From positions 1-64,000 of the forward strand of contig JAFTLD010000015.1 of assembly GCA_017452945.1 (NCBI GenBank): 64,000 nucleotides of DNA. The letters are read 5' to 3'. The notes under the pieces are model-generated. The model did no database searches and was not told where the DNA came from. It was given only the letters and a program-made list of their open reading frames with translations. The translations under genes and the position numbers were made by a program. Position 1 is the stretch's first letter. Every line of letters begins with the position of its first letter. The stretch is from Clostridia bacterium (GTDB lineage: Bacteria; Bacillota_A; Clostridia; Oscillospirales; CAG-272). Shown piece by piece: positions 42,289 through 51,251 of the stretch.

Positions 42289-42984
42289 TCAGATCGGATG
42301 ATTTATCTTGATATCCAATCTGTCAGCCAATTCATTCAAATAGTTCAGATGCGCTCGCAAATAACCGTATGATCGCCAGCCCTCATGTCCTTTGTATTCC
42401 TGTGCTTTGCTTTCGTAATATTCATTAAAGGTGCTTTCCGCTTTCTCAAGATCTCCCAACCGTCCCCAGATCATGGCTTCTTCCAACAGTATCAAGCGAT
42501 TGTTAAAGGCATCCAAACGAGGGTAGCTTCTACGGTTTTCAAGAACCGCAGCACGGCTGTTCAGTGCGTTGAATGCAGGGATGATGTATGCTCTGATCTG
42601 ACGAAGGATATCGCTTGTGATTTCCTGAACCGAATCGTGGAGATCGTAATAGTCCTCTTTTTGACCTTCCATCTCTTTCAGACAGCTGCGTATATTGCAC
42701 CAAGATTCGGGATAATATTTTTTCACATTCTCCTCGGGTTCGAAGCTTCTCAGCTCGCATTCCGGAACACGAATCCCAATATGCACCCACAAAACGTCAT
42801 AAACGCTCTTTGACGGACATCCGATTTGAAAATTGATAACCTGAGAAATATCTCCGTCCACAAATCGGTGAAGAGTGCATCCGTGTTTTTTGAAGCCCAA
42901 CGGCTTTACCTCTGCGTATACCGCTTTTTCAATCTCGTCAACGATGGATTTGGTATCAAGCTGCTTGTCCTTTTCAAAATACAT
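42289..42984 (-). CDS. DUF4304-family protein
   Basis: A 231-residue soluble protein. The N-terminal half (KSIVDEIEKAVYAEVKPLGF, then KHGCTLHRFVDGDISQVINF) is the DUF4304 pattern, a small domain found near polymorphic toxins and thought to act in immunity; the C-terminal half is helical. ATG 42984 is preferred to ATG 42990 because GGGAGAG abuts the latter. First of several AT-rich minus-strand genes; the toxin partner is absent, so it may be an orphan immunity gene. Confidence 0.7.
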   Translation of the reverse strand: MYFEKDKQLDTKSIVDEIEKAVYAEVKPLGFKKHGCTLHRFVDGDISQVINFQIGCPSKSVYDVLWVHIGIRVPECELRSFEPEENVKKYYPESWCNIRSCLKEMEGQKEDYYDLHDSVQEITSDILRQIRAYIIPAFNALNSRAAVLENRRSYPRLDAFNNRLILLEEAMIWGRLGDLEKAESTFNEYYESKAQEYKGHEGWRSYGYLRAHLNYLNELADRLDIKINHPI

Positions 42985-43030
42985 GCACATCTCTCCCTCT
43001 GTGTGTTCATCGGAATAAAACGATACGGGT

Positions 43031-44143: not shown

Positions 44144-44788
44144 TTAATCATTGAACCGTTTAGCCATTTCTTCCACGTCATATTCGAGAAAATACGGTTT
44201 CAATCTGCCATAAAATTCTCGCATCTTTTCCTTTGTCGCAAAAACAATATCACAACCTCTATCATCATAGATGCTTAAAATACATTCGTTTTCAAAGGAC
44301 ACAAAATGTACAGTCCTTGATCCCCACGAGAAATTTTCTATTGCTCTTTTTTTGTAAGGATACTTGGCATCTGTATAGCAAATAATGCGATTCTTTTTAA
44401 CATTGTTTTCTTTTTCATCTTGGTCAAGCGGAATGTTAAAGATGACGGTGTTATCATATTCGTTTATATGCTGTGCAAGGAATCTTATGTTCTTTTTGAA
44501 ATAACCGATGGTATGATTGATATTGATTCCATTCCACGAAGAAAGGTCTTCGACGTAATGATCAAAAAATATGGCATCGGGCGAATTTTGAAAAAGAATA
44601 TCAAATATTTCAAATGCTCGTTTCTTGGCGTTTTTCAAATATACACGCTTAGAATCGCCTATTCCCAATTCACATCTGAGTGCAAAAGGGTGATTATAAA
44701 ACCAAGGTTGTTTATACGAAAACGATGCGTCGGTAATCAATCTTTCGATTTCGCTGTTTGACTTGTTCTTTGCATTCATTAAATCCAT
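44144..44788 (-). CDS. DUF3885-like protein
   Basis: A 214-residue soluble protein. The segment HPFALRCELGIGDSKRVYLK, followed by AFEIFDILF and later RIICYTDAKYPYKKRAIENF, matches the DUF3885 pattern (a His-Pro-hydrophobic-Arg-x-Glu-Leu-Gly core and a later acidic helix) as I remember it. The role is unknown; such genes are scattered and often solitary in Firmicutes. The start follows GGCGGTGATT. Its promoter is supplied by the hairpin element at 44812-44878. Confidence 0.6.
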   Translation of the reverse strand: MDLMNAKNKSNSEIERLITDASFSYKQPWFYNHPFALRCELGIGDSKRVYLKNAKKRAFEIFDILFQNSPDAIFFDHYVEDLSSWNGININHTIGYFKKNIRFLAQHINEYDNTVIFNIPLDQDEKENNVKKNRIICYTDAKYPYKKRAIENFSWGSRTVHFVSFENECILSIYDDRGCDIVFATKEKMREFYGRLKPYFLEYDVEEMAKRFND

Positions 44789-44811: not shown

Positions 44812-44878
44812 ATTATATCACACTTTTATTAACAAATCAAGGCGCAAGCCTTGTATATCATCCGCAGCTTGCCTGCGG
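44812..44878 (-). promoter_or_regulatory. Hairpin-promoter element, copy B (truncated)
   Basis: On the minus strand the element ends with hairpin CCGCA/TGCGG (44862-44878), the linker GATGATATA, hairpin CAAGGC/GCCTTG, then TTGATT (44835-44840), a 17-nt spacer and TATAAT (44812-44817), 24 nt before the DUF3885-like gene. The terminal hairpin overlaps the -35 box. Beyond 44880 the sequence diverges from the other copies, so the distal hairpins are missing or replaced. Confidence 0.7.
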
Positions 44879-44942
44879 TATGGAATCATCTCGAAGGGAT
44901 GTATGTCCTCAGCCCGCAGCTTTCGATGAAACTTTAATGGAT

Positions 44943-44971: not shown

Positions 44972-45544
44972 TTAAATTTCTATAATGAATTTCTCATAGG
45001 CGTTTACGTACTTTGTTTTATTACTTTCAATCGTCCTCGGCGTTCTTCCGTAATTCAGGTGATTATGTCCGTAAACAAAATACGCAGGCTGTGTTTTTTC
45101 AACAAAATCCCTGATAGATTGATATCCCTGATGAGTTGTGTCTTGTCCGTCTCCTATTCCAAAAGCAGGATAATGAGAAATAATAATATCGACACTTGTA
45201 TTGCGCTTGTTCCTTTGATATAGCCTCTTTAGTTTTTTGCACATTTCTGCTTCGGATAGAATATGTCCATTTCTGTGTTGACATCCTATGCCTATAATTC
45301 TGATACCTGACACCTCTACGCTTTTCCACTCAATAAACTCTTTATCAAACAGGCCGGTTTTATAAGTATCATGATTTCCTTTTACATAAAACAAAGGCTT
45401 TTTTAGCTTTGTTCTAATAGTTTCTAAATAACTATATGGCAAATCACCCACTGATAAAATAAGGTCAATATTTCCAAGGCCGTTTTCAGCAAAATATTCC
45501 GTAAGGAATTTGCTTTCCTCATCAGCTATGACTAACACCTTCAT
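44972..45544 (-). CDS. Calcineurin-like metallophosphoesterase
   Basis: A 190-residue enzyme with the metal-binding series DLILSVGDLP, VKGNHD, IIISHYPAFG and YVFGHNH-like YGHNHLNYG. The first motif, normally Asp-x-His, reads ADEES here, so one metal ligand is changed, as in some YfcE/MJ0936-like phosphoesterases. It probably hydrolyses phosphodiesters or phosphomonoesters in the cytoplasm. GAGGTGATGAA precedes ATG 45544. AT-rich; its promoter is part of the hairpin element copy A. Confidence 0.85.
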   Translation of the reverse strand: MKVLVIADEESKFLTEYFAENGLGNIDLILSVGDLPYSYLETIRTKLKKPLFYVKGNHDTYKTGLFDKEFIEWKSVEVSGIRIIGIGCQHRNGHILSEAEMCKKLKRLYQRNKRNTSVDIIISHYPAFGIGDGQDTTHQGYQSIRDFVEKTQPAYFVYGHNHLNYGRTPRTIESNKTKYVNAYEKFIIEI

Positions 45545-45589: not shown

Positions 45590-45774
45590 ATTATATCATA
45601 CATTCGCAAATAAATCAATGCGCAAGCCTTGTATATCATCCGCAGCTTGTTGCGGCATATCATCAAGCCGCAGAGGATGCGGAATGCACGCTGCGCGTGA
45701 TGATATCTAGCCCGAAGGGCTGATGATATGCACCGCACGTTGTGCGGTGATGATATGCCAATCCTGCGAATTGG
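45590..45774 (-). promoter_or_regulatory. Hairpin-promoter element, copy A
   Basis: Read on the minus strand from 45774: hairpin CCAAT/ATTGG, linker ATATCATC, hairpin CACCGCAC/GTGCGGTG, linker ATATCATC, hairpin AGCCC/GGGCT, linker ATATCATC, hairpin CACGC/GCGTG, a spacer containing CCTCTGCGGCTTGATGATAT, hairpin CCGCA/TGCGG, linker GATGATATA, terminal CAA/TTG hairpin, TTGATT (45613-45618), 17-nt spacer, TATAAT (45590-45595). The order and linkers match copy C at 50031-50233; arm sequences differ but pairing is kept. Confidence 0.75.
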
Positions 45775-45776
45775 AT

Positions 45777-45804
45777 AAAAAACGATGCGTTTGCATCGTT
45801 TTTT
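45777..45804. terminator. Bidirectional terminator next to copy A
   Basis: A 12-bp perfect stem AAAAAACGATGC (45777-45788) / GCATCGTTTTTT (45793-45804). It isolates the element and its promoter from transcripts coming from the tRNA side. Confidence 0.8.
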
Positions 45805-45923
45805 GGCGGATTCGTGACCACTTCTTCGCAGAGCGGTATCCGCTCTGCGAAGGACAAAGGTCGAATGAGGCATAACCGAGGCTCGTGGTCATCCGCGACC
45901 TTTGCATCGGTGGGCTCAGGTCG
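45805..45923. other. Structured non-coding stretch between terminator and tRNA palindrome
   Basis: No gene is supported here. A perfect 13-bp-class hairpin CTTCGCAGAGCGG / CCGCTCTGCGAAG lies at its left part, enclosed by an imperfect pairing of GCGGATTCGTGACCAC with GTGGTCATCCGC. Frames on both strands across it are products of these repeats. Confidence 0.5.
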
Positions 45924-45989
45924 CCATCCCCCACCAACACCAAAAGCCCGATGCATGCGCATCGGGCTTTTGGTGTTGGTGGGGGATGG
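45924..45989. repeat. 31-bp perfect palindrome over the tRNA-Tyr 3' end
   Basis: Left arm 45924-45954 and right arm 45959-45989 are exact reverse complements around a 4-nt loop. The right arm contains the last bases of tRNA-Tyr with its CCA; the left arm is an inverted copy. The inner part AAAAGCCCGATGC / GCATCGGGCTTTT serves as the tRNA operon terminator. Confidence 0.85.
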
Positions 45990-46061
45990 TGGATTCGGAC
46001 CACCGAAGTCAGTGACAACAGATTTACAGTCTGCCCCCTTTGGCCGCTCGGGAAATCCCCC
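45977..46061 (-). tRNA. tRNA-Tyr (GTA)
   Basis: 85 nt including an encoded CCA. Acceptor GGGGGAT/ATCCCCC, anticodon stem-loop GCAGA CTGTAAA TCTGT giving anticodon GTA, a long class II variable arm and T-arm GGTGG/CCACC. It follows tRNA-Thr by 5 nt in the same transcript and ends inside the palindrome at 45924-45989. Confidence 0.93.
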
Positions 46062-46066
46062 ATATA

Positions 46067-46141
46067 TGGAGCTGGTGAACGGAGTCGAACCATCAACCTG
46101 CTGATTACAAATCAGCTGCTCTGCCATTGAGCCACACCAGC
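46067..46141 (-). tRNA. tRNA-Thr (TGT)
   Basis: 75 nt including an encoded CCA. Acceptor GCTGGTG/CACCAGC, D-arm GCTC/GAGC, anticodon stem-loop GCTGA TTTGTAA TCAGC giving anticodon TGT, T-arm GATGG/CCGTT. First of a two-tRNA unit. Confidence 0.93.
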
Positions 46142-49046: not shown

Positions 49047-49122
49047 GGGGCATTAGCGCAGTTGGGAGCGCACAACACTGGCAGTGTTGGGGTCAGGGGT
49101 TCGAATCCCCTATGCTCCACCA
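49047..49122 (+). tRNA. tRNA-Ala (GGC)
   Basis: 76 nt including an encoded CCA. Acceptor GGGGCAT/ATGCTCC, D-arm GCGC/GCGC, anticodon stem-loop CAACA CTGGCAG TGTTG giving GGC, T-arm GGGG TTCGAAT CCCC. Copies of its 3' end recur at 49270-49301 and 49444-49475, so it looks like the target of repeated integrations. Confidence 0.92.
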
Positions 49123-49164: not shown

Positions 49165-49210
49165 GCCGGAATTGCACCGATCGAACCCCGCATAAGCGGT
49201 GCCGCGCACC

Positions 49211-49301
49211 GCGACATGCAGATTTGCGCAGGTTGTGTAAGCACTTTCTGTGACCATTGGCGCAAATATGGGTTCAGAATCCCCTATGCTCCACCAAAAA
49301 A
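49211..49301 (+). repeat. 91-bp direct repeat ending in a tRNA-Ala 3' end, copy 1
   Basis: Identical over 91 bp to 49385-49475. Each copy ends in TTCAGAATCCCCTATGCTCC plus ACCA, a near copy of the T-arm and acceptor end of tRNA-Ala (one extra base in the T-loop). The order tRNA end then A-run then hairpin is repeated as well. This looks like attachment-site scars left by integrating elements. Confidence 0.75.
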
Positions 49302-49384
49302 GGATGACGGGGTACGTCAGTACCCCGTCATCCTTTTTTGCCTTGAGTAATACGATGAAGAACCCCGGCATAAGCGGCATAGCC

Positions 49385-49475
49385 GCGACATGCAGATTTG
49401 CGCAGGTTGTGTAAGCACTTTCTGTGACCATTGGCGCAAATATGGGTTCAGAATCCCCTATGCTCCACCAAAAAA
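49385..49475 (+). repeat. 91-bp direct repeat ending in a tRNA-Ala 3' end, copy 2
   Basis: Second identical copy of 49211-49301. Between the copies lies a 20-bp-class hairpin (AGGATGACGGGGTAC / GTACCCCGTCATCCT, 49301-49334) and a block that recurs at 51160-51251 on the far side of the insertion. Confidence 0.75.
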
Positions 49476-49590
49476 GTCGTATCAATCGGGCTGATGAATT
49501 AGCGGTAAAATAGCAGGGATTTGTTCAAGCACGAACAGATTCCTGCTGTTTTTTGTAGAAGTAAGACGTGAAAGAGCGACCGTACGGTAA

Positions 49591-49830: not shown

Positions 49831-50010
49831 CCCCATAGGACAATGTCATTAAGTTAAGGAGTTGCTATCCCCGCCCCTGTCATCCTCGAGCAAGCATTCC
49901 CATTTTTAAGATTCTTCGCTGCGCTCGAGAATGACAAAAATGGGAATGCGCAGCGAAGGATCTTGGGGCGGGGGCGCATCATAGTTTCATAACTTAATGA
50001 TATTGCCCCA
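49831..50010. repeat. Second MITE-like palindromic element
   Basis: An imperfect 180-bp palindrome. Outer arms contain CAATGTCATTAAGTTA and TAACTTAATGATATTG; inner arms contain CCCCGCCCC / GGGGCGGGG, CGAGCGCAGCGAAGAATC-type words and TCCCATTTTT / AAAAATGGGA. It directly precedes the hairpin-promoter element copy C. Confidence 0.65.
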
Positions 50011-50030
50011 CAGGATACGACTTTTTTTAT

Positions 50031-50233
50031 CCAAGTCGCAGACTTGGCATATCATCACCGCACGAAGTGTGGTGGATATTATCAGCCCTTCGGGCTGGAT
50101 ATCATCACGCTCTGGCGTGTATCCTCTGCGACTTGATGATATGCCACTCTTAGAGTGGATGATATGCAATTTCTTCGAAATTGATGATATACAAGGCTCA
50201 CGCCTTGATTTTAGTTAGTTTTTATGCTATAAT
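50031..50233 (+). promoter_or_regulatory. Hairpin-promoter element, copy C
   Basis: A run of hairpins: CCAAGTC/GACTTGG (50031-50047), CACCGCAC/GTGTGGTG (50056-50074), CAGCCC/GGGCTG (50083-50097), CACGC/GCGTG (50106-50119), CCACTC/GAGTGG (from 50144), CAATTTC/GAAATTG and CAAGGC/GCCTTG (50192-50206). Linkers read ATATCATC in the left half and GATGATAT in the right half; CAAGTCGCAGA (50032-50042) also pairs with TCTGCGACTTG (50125-50135). The last hairpin runs into TTGATT (50205-50210), 17-nt spacer and TATAAT (50228-50233), the promoter of the four-helix-bundle gene. Confidence 0.78.
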
Positions 50234-50253
50234 AACCTAAAAGAAGTGATATT

Positions 50254-50601
50254 ATGCCAAAGAATTACTTGCTCATACATTCTGAACAACTTGCAACCGA
50301 TATAGAATTACTTTGCCAGAACATAAAAGCTCCGTCAAATACTTTGTTCCAAATTCGAAAAAGTTCAAGCAGTATTTACGCCAATATCCGCGAAGCAAAT
50401 TACGGACAAAGTAAATCTGACATGGTTTCAAAGTTTGAAATTGCACTAAAAGAATGTAGCGAAACGGAAGGTTGGTTAAAACTACTCTTTAACACAAACG
50501 CGATAGATGAAGAAGTATTCAAAGCTTATCGCAACCTTTGTGGTAGAATTAGACGAATGTTGATTTCAAGTTGTAAAACGCTAAAGGAAAGTGCCAAATG
50601 A
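50254..50601 (+). CDS. Four-helix-bundle protein (S23/IVP, Avd-like)
   Basis: A 115-residue helical protein. LFQIRKSSSSIYANIREANYGQS (shown across residues 31-53), followed by KFEIALKECSETEGWLKLL and a basic C-terminal helix YRNLCGRIRRMLIS, is the pattern of the 23S intervening-sequence (S23) family, related to the Avd accessory protein of diversity-generating retroelements. These pentameric bundles bind nucleic acid through a basic surface. No rRNA, reverse transcriptase or template repeat is nearby. AT-rich; overlaps the next gene by 4 nt. Confidence 0.85.
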   Translation: MPKNYLLIHSEQLATDIELLCQNIKAPSNTLFQIRKSSSSIYANIREANYGQSKSDMVSKFEIALKECSETEGWLKLLFNTNAIDEEVFKAYRNLCGRIRRMLISSCKTLKESAK

Positions 50602-51047
50602 AACCTTTATGTAAAAAAATATACATCGATAAAATAGTTGAAATTGTTGTGTTAATCATCGGAAGTGTGCTTGACACATTTCTCATCGTCAATATGGGTA
50701 AGGATCTGTTTTTTCTGATCTTTATTATACCGTTTACAGTAATGCTTTCATACTTTTTAATAGATTCCATTTATTGGGTTTTCCAACCTGATGTGTTGAT
50801 TTATCAATATGAAACCGGAATAGTAATTCAACGAAACAAAAAGATTGAATATACAGAAATAGAACGGGTTTATTATAAAAATTACATACACAAAAAACGT
50901 TATGGCAACTATTACAAAGATACTTACAGCGGAATAATCTTTATACAATTGAAGTCCGGTAAAGTATATAAGATAAGGAATGCATTTTATCCTTTAGAGG
51001 TGGTAGATGCACTTTCTCGCATAAAACAACAGAAAAAATTCAGATAG
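50598..51047 (+). CDS. Membrane protein with PH-like domain, unknown
   Basis: A 149-residue protein: two membrane helices (about 13-33 and 38-62), then a cytoplasmic strand-rich domain (VLIYQYETGIVIQRNKKIEY, YSGIIFIQLKSGKVYKIRN) and a final helix, the layout of bacterial PH (YdbT/PH_2-like) membrane proteins. ATGA overlap with the four-helix-bundle gene makes a two-gene unit. Strongly AT-rich, unlike the core genes around the insertion. Confidence 0.65.
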   Translation: MKPLCKKIYIDKIVEIVVLIIGSVLDTFLIVNMGKDLFFLIFIIPFTVMLSYFLIDSIYWVFQPDVLIYQYETGIVIQRNKKIEYTEIERVYYKNYIHKKRYGNYYKDTYSGIIFIQLKSGKVYKIRNAFYPLEVVDALSRIKQQKKFR

Positions 51048-51159
51048 TTGACATTTTATCTTCTAAAGACTATAAAATTTGAACCTATCGTTTAAATTGA
51101 ACCCATTTGCCCCCAAATGAACCCATCAGTATTTTGTATCCTTTTCATCAATTACTCAC

Positions 51160-51251
51160 AAAAAAGGATCGCGGGGTATGTCAGTACCCGTCATCCTTTT
51201 TTGCCTTGAGTAATACGATGAAGAACCCCCGCATAAGCGGCAAAGCCGCGA
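51160..51251 (+). repeat. Far-side copy of the tRNA-Ala flank block
   Basis: About 90% identical to 49296-49388: an A-run, a GGATxxCGGGGTA hairpin, TTTTTTGCCTTGAGTAATAC, GATGAAGAACCCC, GCATAAGCGGC and GCCGCGA. The two blocks bracket 1.8 kb of AT-rich cargo. This copy lacks the tRNA 3' end that follows the near-side block, and its hairpin has lost a base. Confidence 0.7.

Follow-up and report, generated by a model that had tools for sequence, protein, structure and literature searches.

The window analyzed here, a stretch of 64,000 nucleotides of a Clostridia bacterium genome, carries on its plus strand a multi-hairpin array (50029-50207, found by sequence reading, folding, and parsing) in front of a gene for an S23 (23S_rRNA_IVP) four-helix-bundle protein (50254-50601; PF05635, E 5.9e-19; TIGR02436). 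A promoter-like TTGATT-17-TATAAT (50205-50233; TTGATT at 50205-50210, TATAAT at 50228-50233) lies between them, with its -35 box overlapping the last hairpin. The S23 gene is followed on the same strand by a cargo gene (50598-51047), whose 149-aa product had no Pfam or NCBIfam match at E 0.001, and by the right end of the cassette (51096-51160), which closes on ATTACTCACA and has 51160 as its last base; a similar end closes the unit at the tmRNA locus L074. On the left, the right arm and T-run of the opening terminator are present at 50012-50028 (plus strand). Its left arm is absent here, and an intact homologue is found in L023. An inverted repeat pair at 49838-50008 (19 nt, 89%) adjoins this broken terminator and is perhaps another small insertion.

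Read from 50029, the array consists of ATCC, a local hairpin (50031-50047, in which 50031-50037 pairs with 50041-50047), three linker-hairpin repeats, an apex arm, and three complementary linker-hairpin repeats, with six further hairpins after the local one. The left linkers are ATATCATC (50049-50056 and 50099-50106) and ATATTATC (50076-50083). The right linker, GATGATAT (50135-50142, 50158-50165, and 50183-50190), is the reverse complement of the left-linker type; the two strands of the window together have 12 copies of it, compared with a mean of 2.1 and a maximum of 6 in shuffled sequence. The arm at 50032-50042 (plus strand) is used alternatively by the local hairpin and by an 11-bp long-range pairing with 50125-50135 (plus strand), so that two mutually exclusive folds are built in. 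The fold of 50020-50240 gave z scores of -5.5 as RNA and -8.2 as DNA, and 0 of 200 shuffles equaled it in either form. A scan of the window with Rfam 15 returned only three tRNAs at gathering score, with no rRNA and no known RNA family for the array.

Two further copies lie on the minus strand, in a run headed by tRNA-Thr and tRNA-Tyr (45977-46141; ARAGORN). The one at 45590-45804 stands downstream of the tRNA-Tyr behind a sequence ending in GAATCCGCC, has a terminator, a full array, and TTGATT-17-TATAAT, and is followed by a metallophosphoesterase gene (44972-45544, minus strand); by eye, a similar gene lies behind the element at tRNA-Ser in L091. The other (44812-44915) consists of the right half alone; its linkers are a mixture of GATTCCAT and GATGATAT, and it again has TTGATT-17-TATAAT, in front of a DUF3885 gene (44144-44788, minus strand). 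This gene and a DUF4304 gene (42289-42990) belong to the minus-strand run downstream of the two copies, and both are possibly further cassette cargo. An inverted repeat at 45907-46006, with 48-nt arms of 85% identity, takes in the 3' end of the tRNA-Tyr. The sequence-only reading of this DNA had described about seven short hairpins with left and right linkers, the 11-bp pairing, the exact 17-nt promoter spacing with the -35 box in the last hairpin, an S23/Avd-like gene behind the element, and two further copies. On re-reading, the hairpins, linkers, and pairing agreed to the base, the promoter was present as described in the window copy, and the gene and both copies were real.

The nearest same-strand tRNA upstream of the S23 cassette is tRNA-Ala(GGC) (49047-49122, plus strand; ARAGORN), 907 nt before the element. 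Between the two, a repeat search found two 94-nt direct repeats with a 174-nt spacing (49209-49302 and 49383-49476, plus strand), both of which close on a duplicate of the tRNA-Ala 3' end. A terminator-like inverted repeat (49295-49340) comes after the first of them. The repeats are probably traces of earlier insertions at the tRNA-Ala.

To relatives of the window element we applied a covariance model built from 40 copies. It matched all 16 genomes searched, these having been chosen through S23, and, under stricter filters at E 1e-9, 4 of 148 genomes of the class, the centre included. Pairing was counted in 120 distinct strong elements, 102 of which could be parsed. All nine pairs of the long-range helix formed in 79 of the 102 and at least eight of the nine in 97, with 12 arm sequences in use. 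Among 26 unique arm pairs, 209 of 234 positions paired, while shuffled partners averaged 180 and reached at most 197. In the alignment A1 (the window plus 39 of 50 candidates), 357 of 360 pairs formed, a value biased by the omission of 13 rows without an exact arm match (15 of 65 rows were left out, the other two being duplicates), so that 97 of 102 is the fairer count. Stems of at least 5 bp were found at hairpins A to F in 87/119, 87/119, 49/110, 102/116, 100/110, and 82/92 cases, and each position is represented by 46-81 different sequences. The stem rule is lenient: in shuffled elements it is passed from 23% of random starts. The linkers fall into the subfamilies ATATCATC/GATGATAT, ATGTAATC/GATTACAT, ATGGAATC/GATTCCAT, and others. 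Left and right linkers switch in concert, which preserves their complementarity; the exceptions are single bases and a few mixed arrays. The stems, the alternative arm pairings, and the complementary linkers are thus preserved while the hairpin sequences drift. The earlier reading was right in so far as the element is structured and dispersed and goes with an S23 gene, and its pairing covaries. Other hairpin arrays, with the linkers ATGAAG/CTTCAT or AACATCAT/ATGATGTT, stand behind terminators in L105, L006, and L185.

A genome scan with the window S23 protein gave 151 confirmed relatives, from which 80 loci were retained. All 80 belong to MAGs whose titles read Clostridia, Clostridiales, Oscillospiraceae, Ruminococcaceae, or Ruminococcus, and ruminant guts are the source of many. 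With the window included, 66 of 81 cases have the ATCC start of the array no more than about 330 nt ahead of the S23 gene. Most of the other 15 are at contig edges; L006, L015, L019, and L045 have DNA there and lack or displace the ATCC. In 26 loci inspected, a tRNA 3' end and a terminator commonly preceded the array, and ARAGORN identified many tRNA types as well as tmRNA. A profile search showed that a tRNA or tmRNA gene on the same strand ends 33-47 nt before the ATCC in 73 of 135 unique elements. The hosts of these 73 cover 14 amino-acid types plus tmRNA (Leu 12, Arg 10, Val 9, Ser 9, Gly 5, Tyr 5, Thr 5, Glu 4, Trp 3, Cys 3, tmRNA 2, His 2, Pro 2, Asn 1, and Gln 1). The remaining 62 comprise 10 elements at the edge of a locus, 25 with a more distant upstream tRNA, and 27 for which the available DNA showed no tRNA; the last two groups include later tandem cassettes and CCA-ended remnants. 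The spacer between tRNA and array is a terminator, a near-perfect inverted repeat starting from or next to the A of CCA, and a script detected a terminator before 110 elements, 68 of them tRNA-adjacent. The constant feature of the array is its place behind the CCA end of a tRNA or tmRNA or behind the 3' end of another gene.

Comparisons between units placed the borders (written here as a slash). In L113, units 1 and 3 share 154 nt at 99.4% from CA/A onward, and in L111, units 2 and 3 share 175 nt at 93.7%, again from CA/A; in both cases the flanks are unrelated and the units belong to one genome. On the other side, the units of L002, L003, L004, L011, and L027 share a right end and then continue into five different sequences. 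Four of these five related units end in GCA/ and L003 ends in CTTTCA/. At tRNA-Glu, the terminator behind the unit of G005 is orthologous to that of G018 (L172 versus L207). The shared ends and this orthology indicate that the cassette runs from CA/ to CA/, its left terminator being its own and the right terminator belonging to the site. The layout is accordingly tRNA-CCA / terminator, multi-hairpin array, promoter, S23 and/or other genes, right end / native terminator. A crossover in the terminator loop was ruled out because unit homology stops at CA/, short of the right-hand terminator. Cassettes also occur in tandem and in the same orientation (L079, L005, L020, L111, and L113); L079 has three units behind tRNA-Cys, each with a different gene set. 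By eye, diverse genes follow the S23-free copies, and a few copies have no gene close by.

A duplicated tRNA tail was rejected as the general right end: 10 of 71 units match at least 7 nt of their own tRNA, about 4 being expected from the tails of other tRNAs, and 61 have no such match. Long copies, 16-24 nt of the tRNA 3' end, were seen at four right ends only (L056, L093, L176, and L183) and are not predicted by a simple CA/ model. These four, together with L111 and L069, resemble remnants left by ordinary integrase islands or by deletions. L111 carries a second copy of the tRNA-Leu half that runs from the anticodon to the 3' end, placed 3.6 kb downstream in the manner of an ordinary integrase attachment site; S23 cassettes lie to either side. 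Array-free inserts of about 140-210 nt that end in an 18-21-nt copy of the tRNA 3' end are present in L207, L211, and L215 (tRNA-Glu, tRNA-Thr, and tRNA-Tyr) and make up a second class of small tRNA-end insert.

The units of L011 and L002 are 98% identical over 1.0 kb, and the right flank of L011 had no match at E 1e-30 in the genome of L002, which argues for transfer. A search for an empty site with this flank returned its own genome and one 225-nt match among 79 relatives, and two short matches among the 44 genomes of other S23 loci (overlapping the 79). Neither an excised circle nor a recent empty site was seen, and movement is judged from comparisons alone. One tRNA-Pro copy is common to two related species. 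Viral contigs and phage and plasmid collections contained no S23 relative and no element DNA at the limits used. L030 and L031 share 6.3 kb at 100% identity in MAGs filed as two species, a possible case of binning contamination.

The S23 protein was modeled with a pLDDT of 94.9. The model matched the S23 structures 2rld (E 4e-6) and 2gsc (E 7e-4) and the Avd protein of diversity-generating retroelements (DGR) in 4dwl (E 0.012); against Avd alone and in its RNP (4dwl and 8ube), TM was 0.74-0.79 and Foldseek E 0.01-0.2. By predicted fold and by sequence family, the window protein is thus assigned to the S23/Avd four-helix-bundle proteins. We found 3003 homologous proteins. A median dN/dS of 0.035, from 133 usable of 300 sampled pairs, points to strong purifying selection, and synonymous sites were saturated in 166 of the 300, so that most copies are old.

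Of the 119 elements followed by sufficient DNA, 71 had a recognizable S23 gene behind them, though the S23 query biases this sample; among the 41 elements from model-derived loci and the window that the S23 set did not already include, a motif test recognized S23 in at least 3. Most elements seem to lack S23. By eye, among the matches listed in the 16 genomes, S23 matches of 61-70 bits adjoin a listed element in 20 of 21 cases, and the matches above 80 bits that were compared are not beside elements of the window linker type. At E 1e-18, an S23 query had matches in 78 of 296 relatives. Where identity is 60% or higher and the upstream DNA is long enough, all 22 loci have the array (L223 half only), and 17 of them have a tRNA within 300 nt. 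Linker type broadly tracks S23 type in these 22 loci, which makes S23 a more attractive candidate binder of the array, with the proviso that adjacent DNA is co-inherited and linkage alone can give such a correlation.

The association extends to divergent S23 genes. We took 45 loci of 36-47% identity from the listed matches, a non-random choice, and 43 remained after two were found too short. At least three perfect hairpins were present in the 330 nt upstream in 39 of the 43 (L254, L271, L274, and L286 have 1-2), with a mean of 5.1 per locus, against 1.3 further upstream and 0.7 in shuffled sequence. Thirteen of the 43 loci are directly behind a tRNA or tmRNA, and arrays are also found at the 3' ends of guaA, rlmD, rsmG, and serS. 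The coding host genes are intact at their ends: GuaA, RlmD, RsmG, SerS, FtsK, V-ATPase D, and Maf reach their profile ends. A 7-mer occurring at least twice, with its reverse complement at least twice downstream, was found in 43 of 66 S23 loci (42 of 65 without the mis-cut L242, whose S23 gene is at the edge of the available DNA), against 7 of 1320 shuffled sequences and 1 of 61 far regions. The S23 cassettes are part of a broader association between S23 genes and hairpin arrays.

The sequence-only reading had taken the element for a promoter module, perhaps one in which folding switches the -35 box on or off. Among 76 assessable S23 units of the window subfamily, the -35 box does lie within the last hairpin, 16-18 nt from the -10 box, in 52. 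In 20, however, the promoter is 14-51 nt past the last hairpin; 4 have no recognizable linker, and 5 further units were too short. In the wider S23 loci, a scan allowing up to 3 of 12 mismatches found a promoter-like sequence between array and start codon in 34 of 66 and none in 32 (31 of 65 without the mis-cut L242), and many of these 32 have a ribosome-binding site close after the last hairpin. The overlap is thus common in one lineage and is not the purpose of the array. With copies also persisting without a gene close behind, we consider it highly improbable that the last hairpin masks and unmasks the -35 box by folding as a cruciform or as RNA, and this part of the earlier reading was not supported.

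A gene for a mover was sought in 16 genomes, where the incompleteness of MAGs makes any absence soft evidence. Reverse transcriptase (PF00078) was present in 5 of the 16, Y1 transposase (PF01797) and serine recombinase in 9 each, and tyrosine recombinase (PF00589) in 15. PF01797 had no match in G002, G009, and G014, which have 20-26 model matches each, and G009 had no tyrosine recombinase match despite 21 model matches, counted over both strands; these assemblies may be incomplete. By eye, no tyrosine recombinase or reverse transcriptase was near an element among the matches listed, and the nearest Y1 matches among them were at 2.2 kb (G003:C29) and 5.9 kb (G012:C29). No mover of the S23 cassettes was found among these four enzyme types in the 16 genomes, and a retroelement was rejected because reverse transcriptase is too rare. 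Among the matches listed, the nearest serine-recombinase match is weak (35 bits; G002:C20:31781-32197, in L115); it is 1.8 kb away from an S23-free element and lies between that element and a tRNA-Gln.

The cassettes resemble several known systems in part. The 3' ends of tRNA genes and guaA are favorite targets of tyrosine-integrase islands. The S23 cassettes also target tRNA and guaA 3' ends; unlike the islands, one S23 family uses many tRNAs with a CCA/ joint, no tail match of 7 nt or more is present in 61 of 71 units, and no tyrosine integrase is near the elements among the matches listed. Elements of the IS200/IS605 type or REP elements have hairpin ends, a short fixed joint, and no long target duplication. 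The cassettes share a hairpin end, a short joint, and mostly no long target duplication, whereas Y1 is found in only 9 of 16 genomes and the S23 arrays have 6-7 hairpins and complementary linkers. A feature in common with DGRs is the likeness of the S23 model to Avd (4dwl and 8ube), but 11 of the 16 genomes with S23 elements lack a reverse transcriptase match. A single integron attC is smaller than the 6-7-hairpin array, which sits at the left end of its cassette. Like integron cassettes, the S23 cassettes are tandem, in the same orientation, and diverse in genes, and their array, a putative counterpart of attC, is preserved as structure; attC is a recognition site in which structure and not sequence is conserved (PMC2727003). 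They differ in bringing their own promoters and terminators and in that many tRNA genes can head an array. No platform of integrase and attI was seen: PF00589 is in 15 of 16 genomes and none is near an element among the matches listed.

The nearest relative by protein is the 23S rRNA intervening sequence (IVS). Its S23 ORF is described as unclear in function and origin, with mobility hypothesized, the IVS itself as sporadic and thought to be horizontally spread, and one S23 relative as a homopentamer (passages of PMC4990558). ORFs of the IVP type are scattered across rRNA insertion sites of CPR (passages of PMC11270868), and PF05635 resembles Avd (passages of PMC10053308). The S23 cassettes share the protein family (PF05635, 5.9e-19) and the form of a stem-loop-bordered element in or at a stable RNA gene. 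In contrast to the IVS, they stand behind tRNA, tmRNA, or coding genes and not in rRNA, and they have a 6-7-hairpin array, complementary linkers, promoters, cargo, and tandem arrays. Insertion in an rRNA helix was not found: Rfam detected no rRNA in the window, and 73 of 135 elements are behind a tRNA or tmRNA. Among the titles and opening lines of abstracts listed from the open PMC literature, subscription papers being outside this scope, none deals with such hairpin arrays or with S23 genes at tRNA ends.

We infer active movement, binding by S23, and an enzyme acting in trans from these comparisons, and we regard as fairly probable a reading in which the element is the left end of a family of small mobile S23 cassettes at tRNA and tmRNA CCA ends, with the array as a structure read by S23. 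A cassette would insert straight behind the CCA end of a tRNA or tmRNA gene, with joints made by an enzyme encoded elsewhere, and cassettes would stack into same-orientation tandem arrays. Its own terminator would contain tRNA transcription, and the promoter after the last hairpin would merely express the first gene. The array would be a folded recognition structure, which S23, as an Avd-like four-helix bundle, may recognize as RNA or single-stranded DNA; this recognition would serve movement or maintenance.

Some of the same observations would fit an integron-like system, in which a tyrosine-type recombinase acting in trans uses the array as a folded-DNA recombination site, tRNA ends serve in the manner of attI, and S23 is a common cargo. 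Tandem same-orientation cassettes with diverse genes, a structure preserved while its sequence drifts, sharp CA/ joints, the z score of the DNA fold (-8.2), and tyrosine recombinases in 15 of 16 genomes all agree with it. It leaves unexplained why widely divergent S23 genes stand behind such arrays, and the matches listed place no tyrosine recombinase near an element, with G009 (21 model matches) having none, so that we hold it to be possible and on the unlikely side. We are more doubtful that the array is an RNA leader of S23, read through from the host gene and forming an RNP with S23 for autoregulation or retro-type movement. The 32 of 66 loci without a promoter-like sequence after the array, many with a ribosome-binding site close behind, would suit such a leader, as would the likeness of the model to DGR Avd alone and in RNP (TM 0.74-0.79, Foldseek E 0.01-0.2) and the resemblance of PF05635 to Avd noted in PMC10053308. 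Reverse transcriptase, however, is in only 5 of 16 genomes, and in the window subfamily the promoter is at or beyond the last hairpin in 72 of 76 assessable units and so does not transcribe the array. Near-identical units with non-homologous flanks, exact CA/ borders, and the use of at least 14 tRNA types make it improbable that the array is an old, non-mobile repeat associated with tRNA trailers or terminators and spread by ordinary duplication and recombination, although saturated synonymous divergence and vertical inheritance at tRNA-Pro are what such a repeat would give.

The reading of a mobile S23 cassette family has a wider form, which we offer tentatively and consider rather unlikely: S23 could be the hallmark of a class of mobile elements in which an Avd-like ring binds a hairpin array with complementary linkers, encoded by the element itself, and docks it at stable RNA genes and housekeeping genes (tRNA, tmRNA, guaA, rlmD, rsmG, and serS), at their 3' ends or at hairpins, with the 23S IVS as stripped-down members that landed in rRNA. 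The origin and movement of S23-bearing intervening sequences, and the role of S23, have been open questions for decades (passages of PMC4990558). Dozens of loci now connect the S23 family with a precise anatomy whose ends can be mapped, so that both mobility and binding can be put to a direct test. For gut Clostridia, a cassette system at tRNA genes may be a hidden route for gaining accessory genes.
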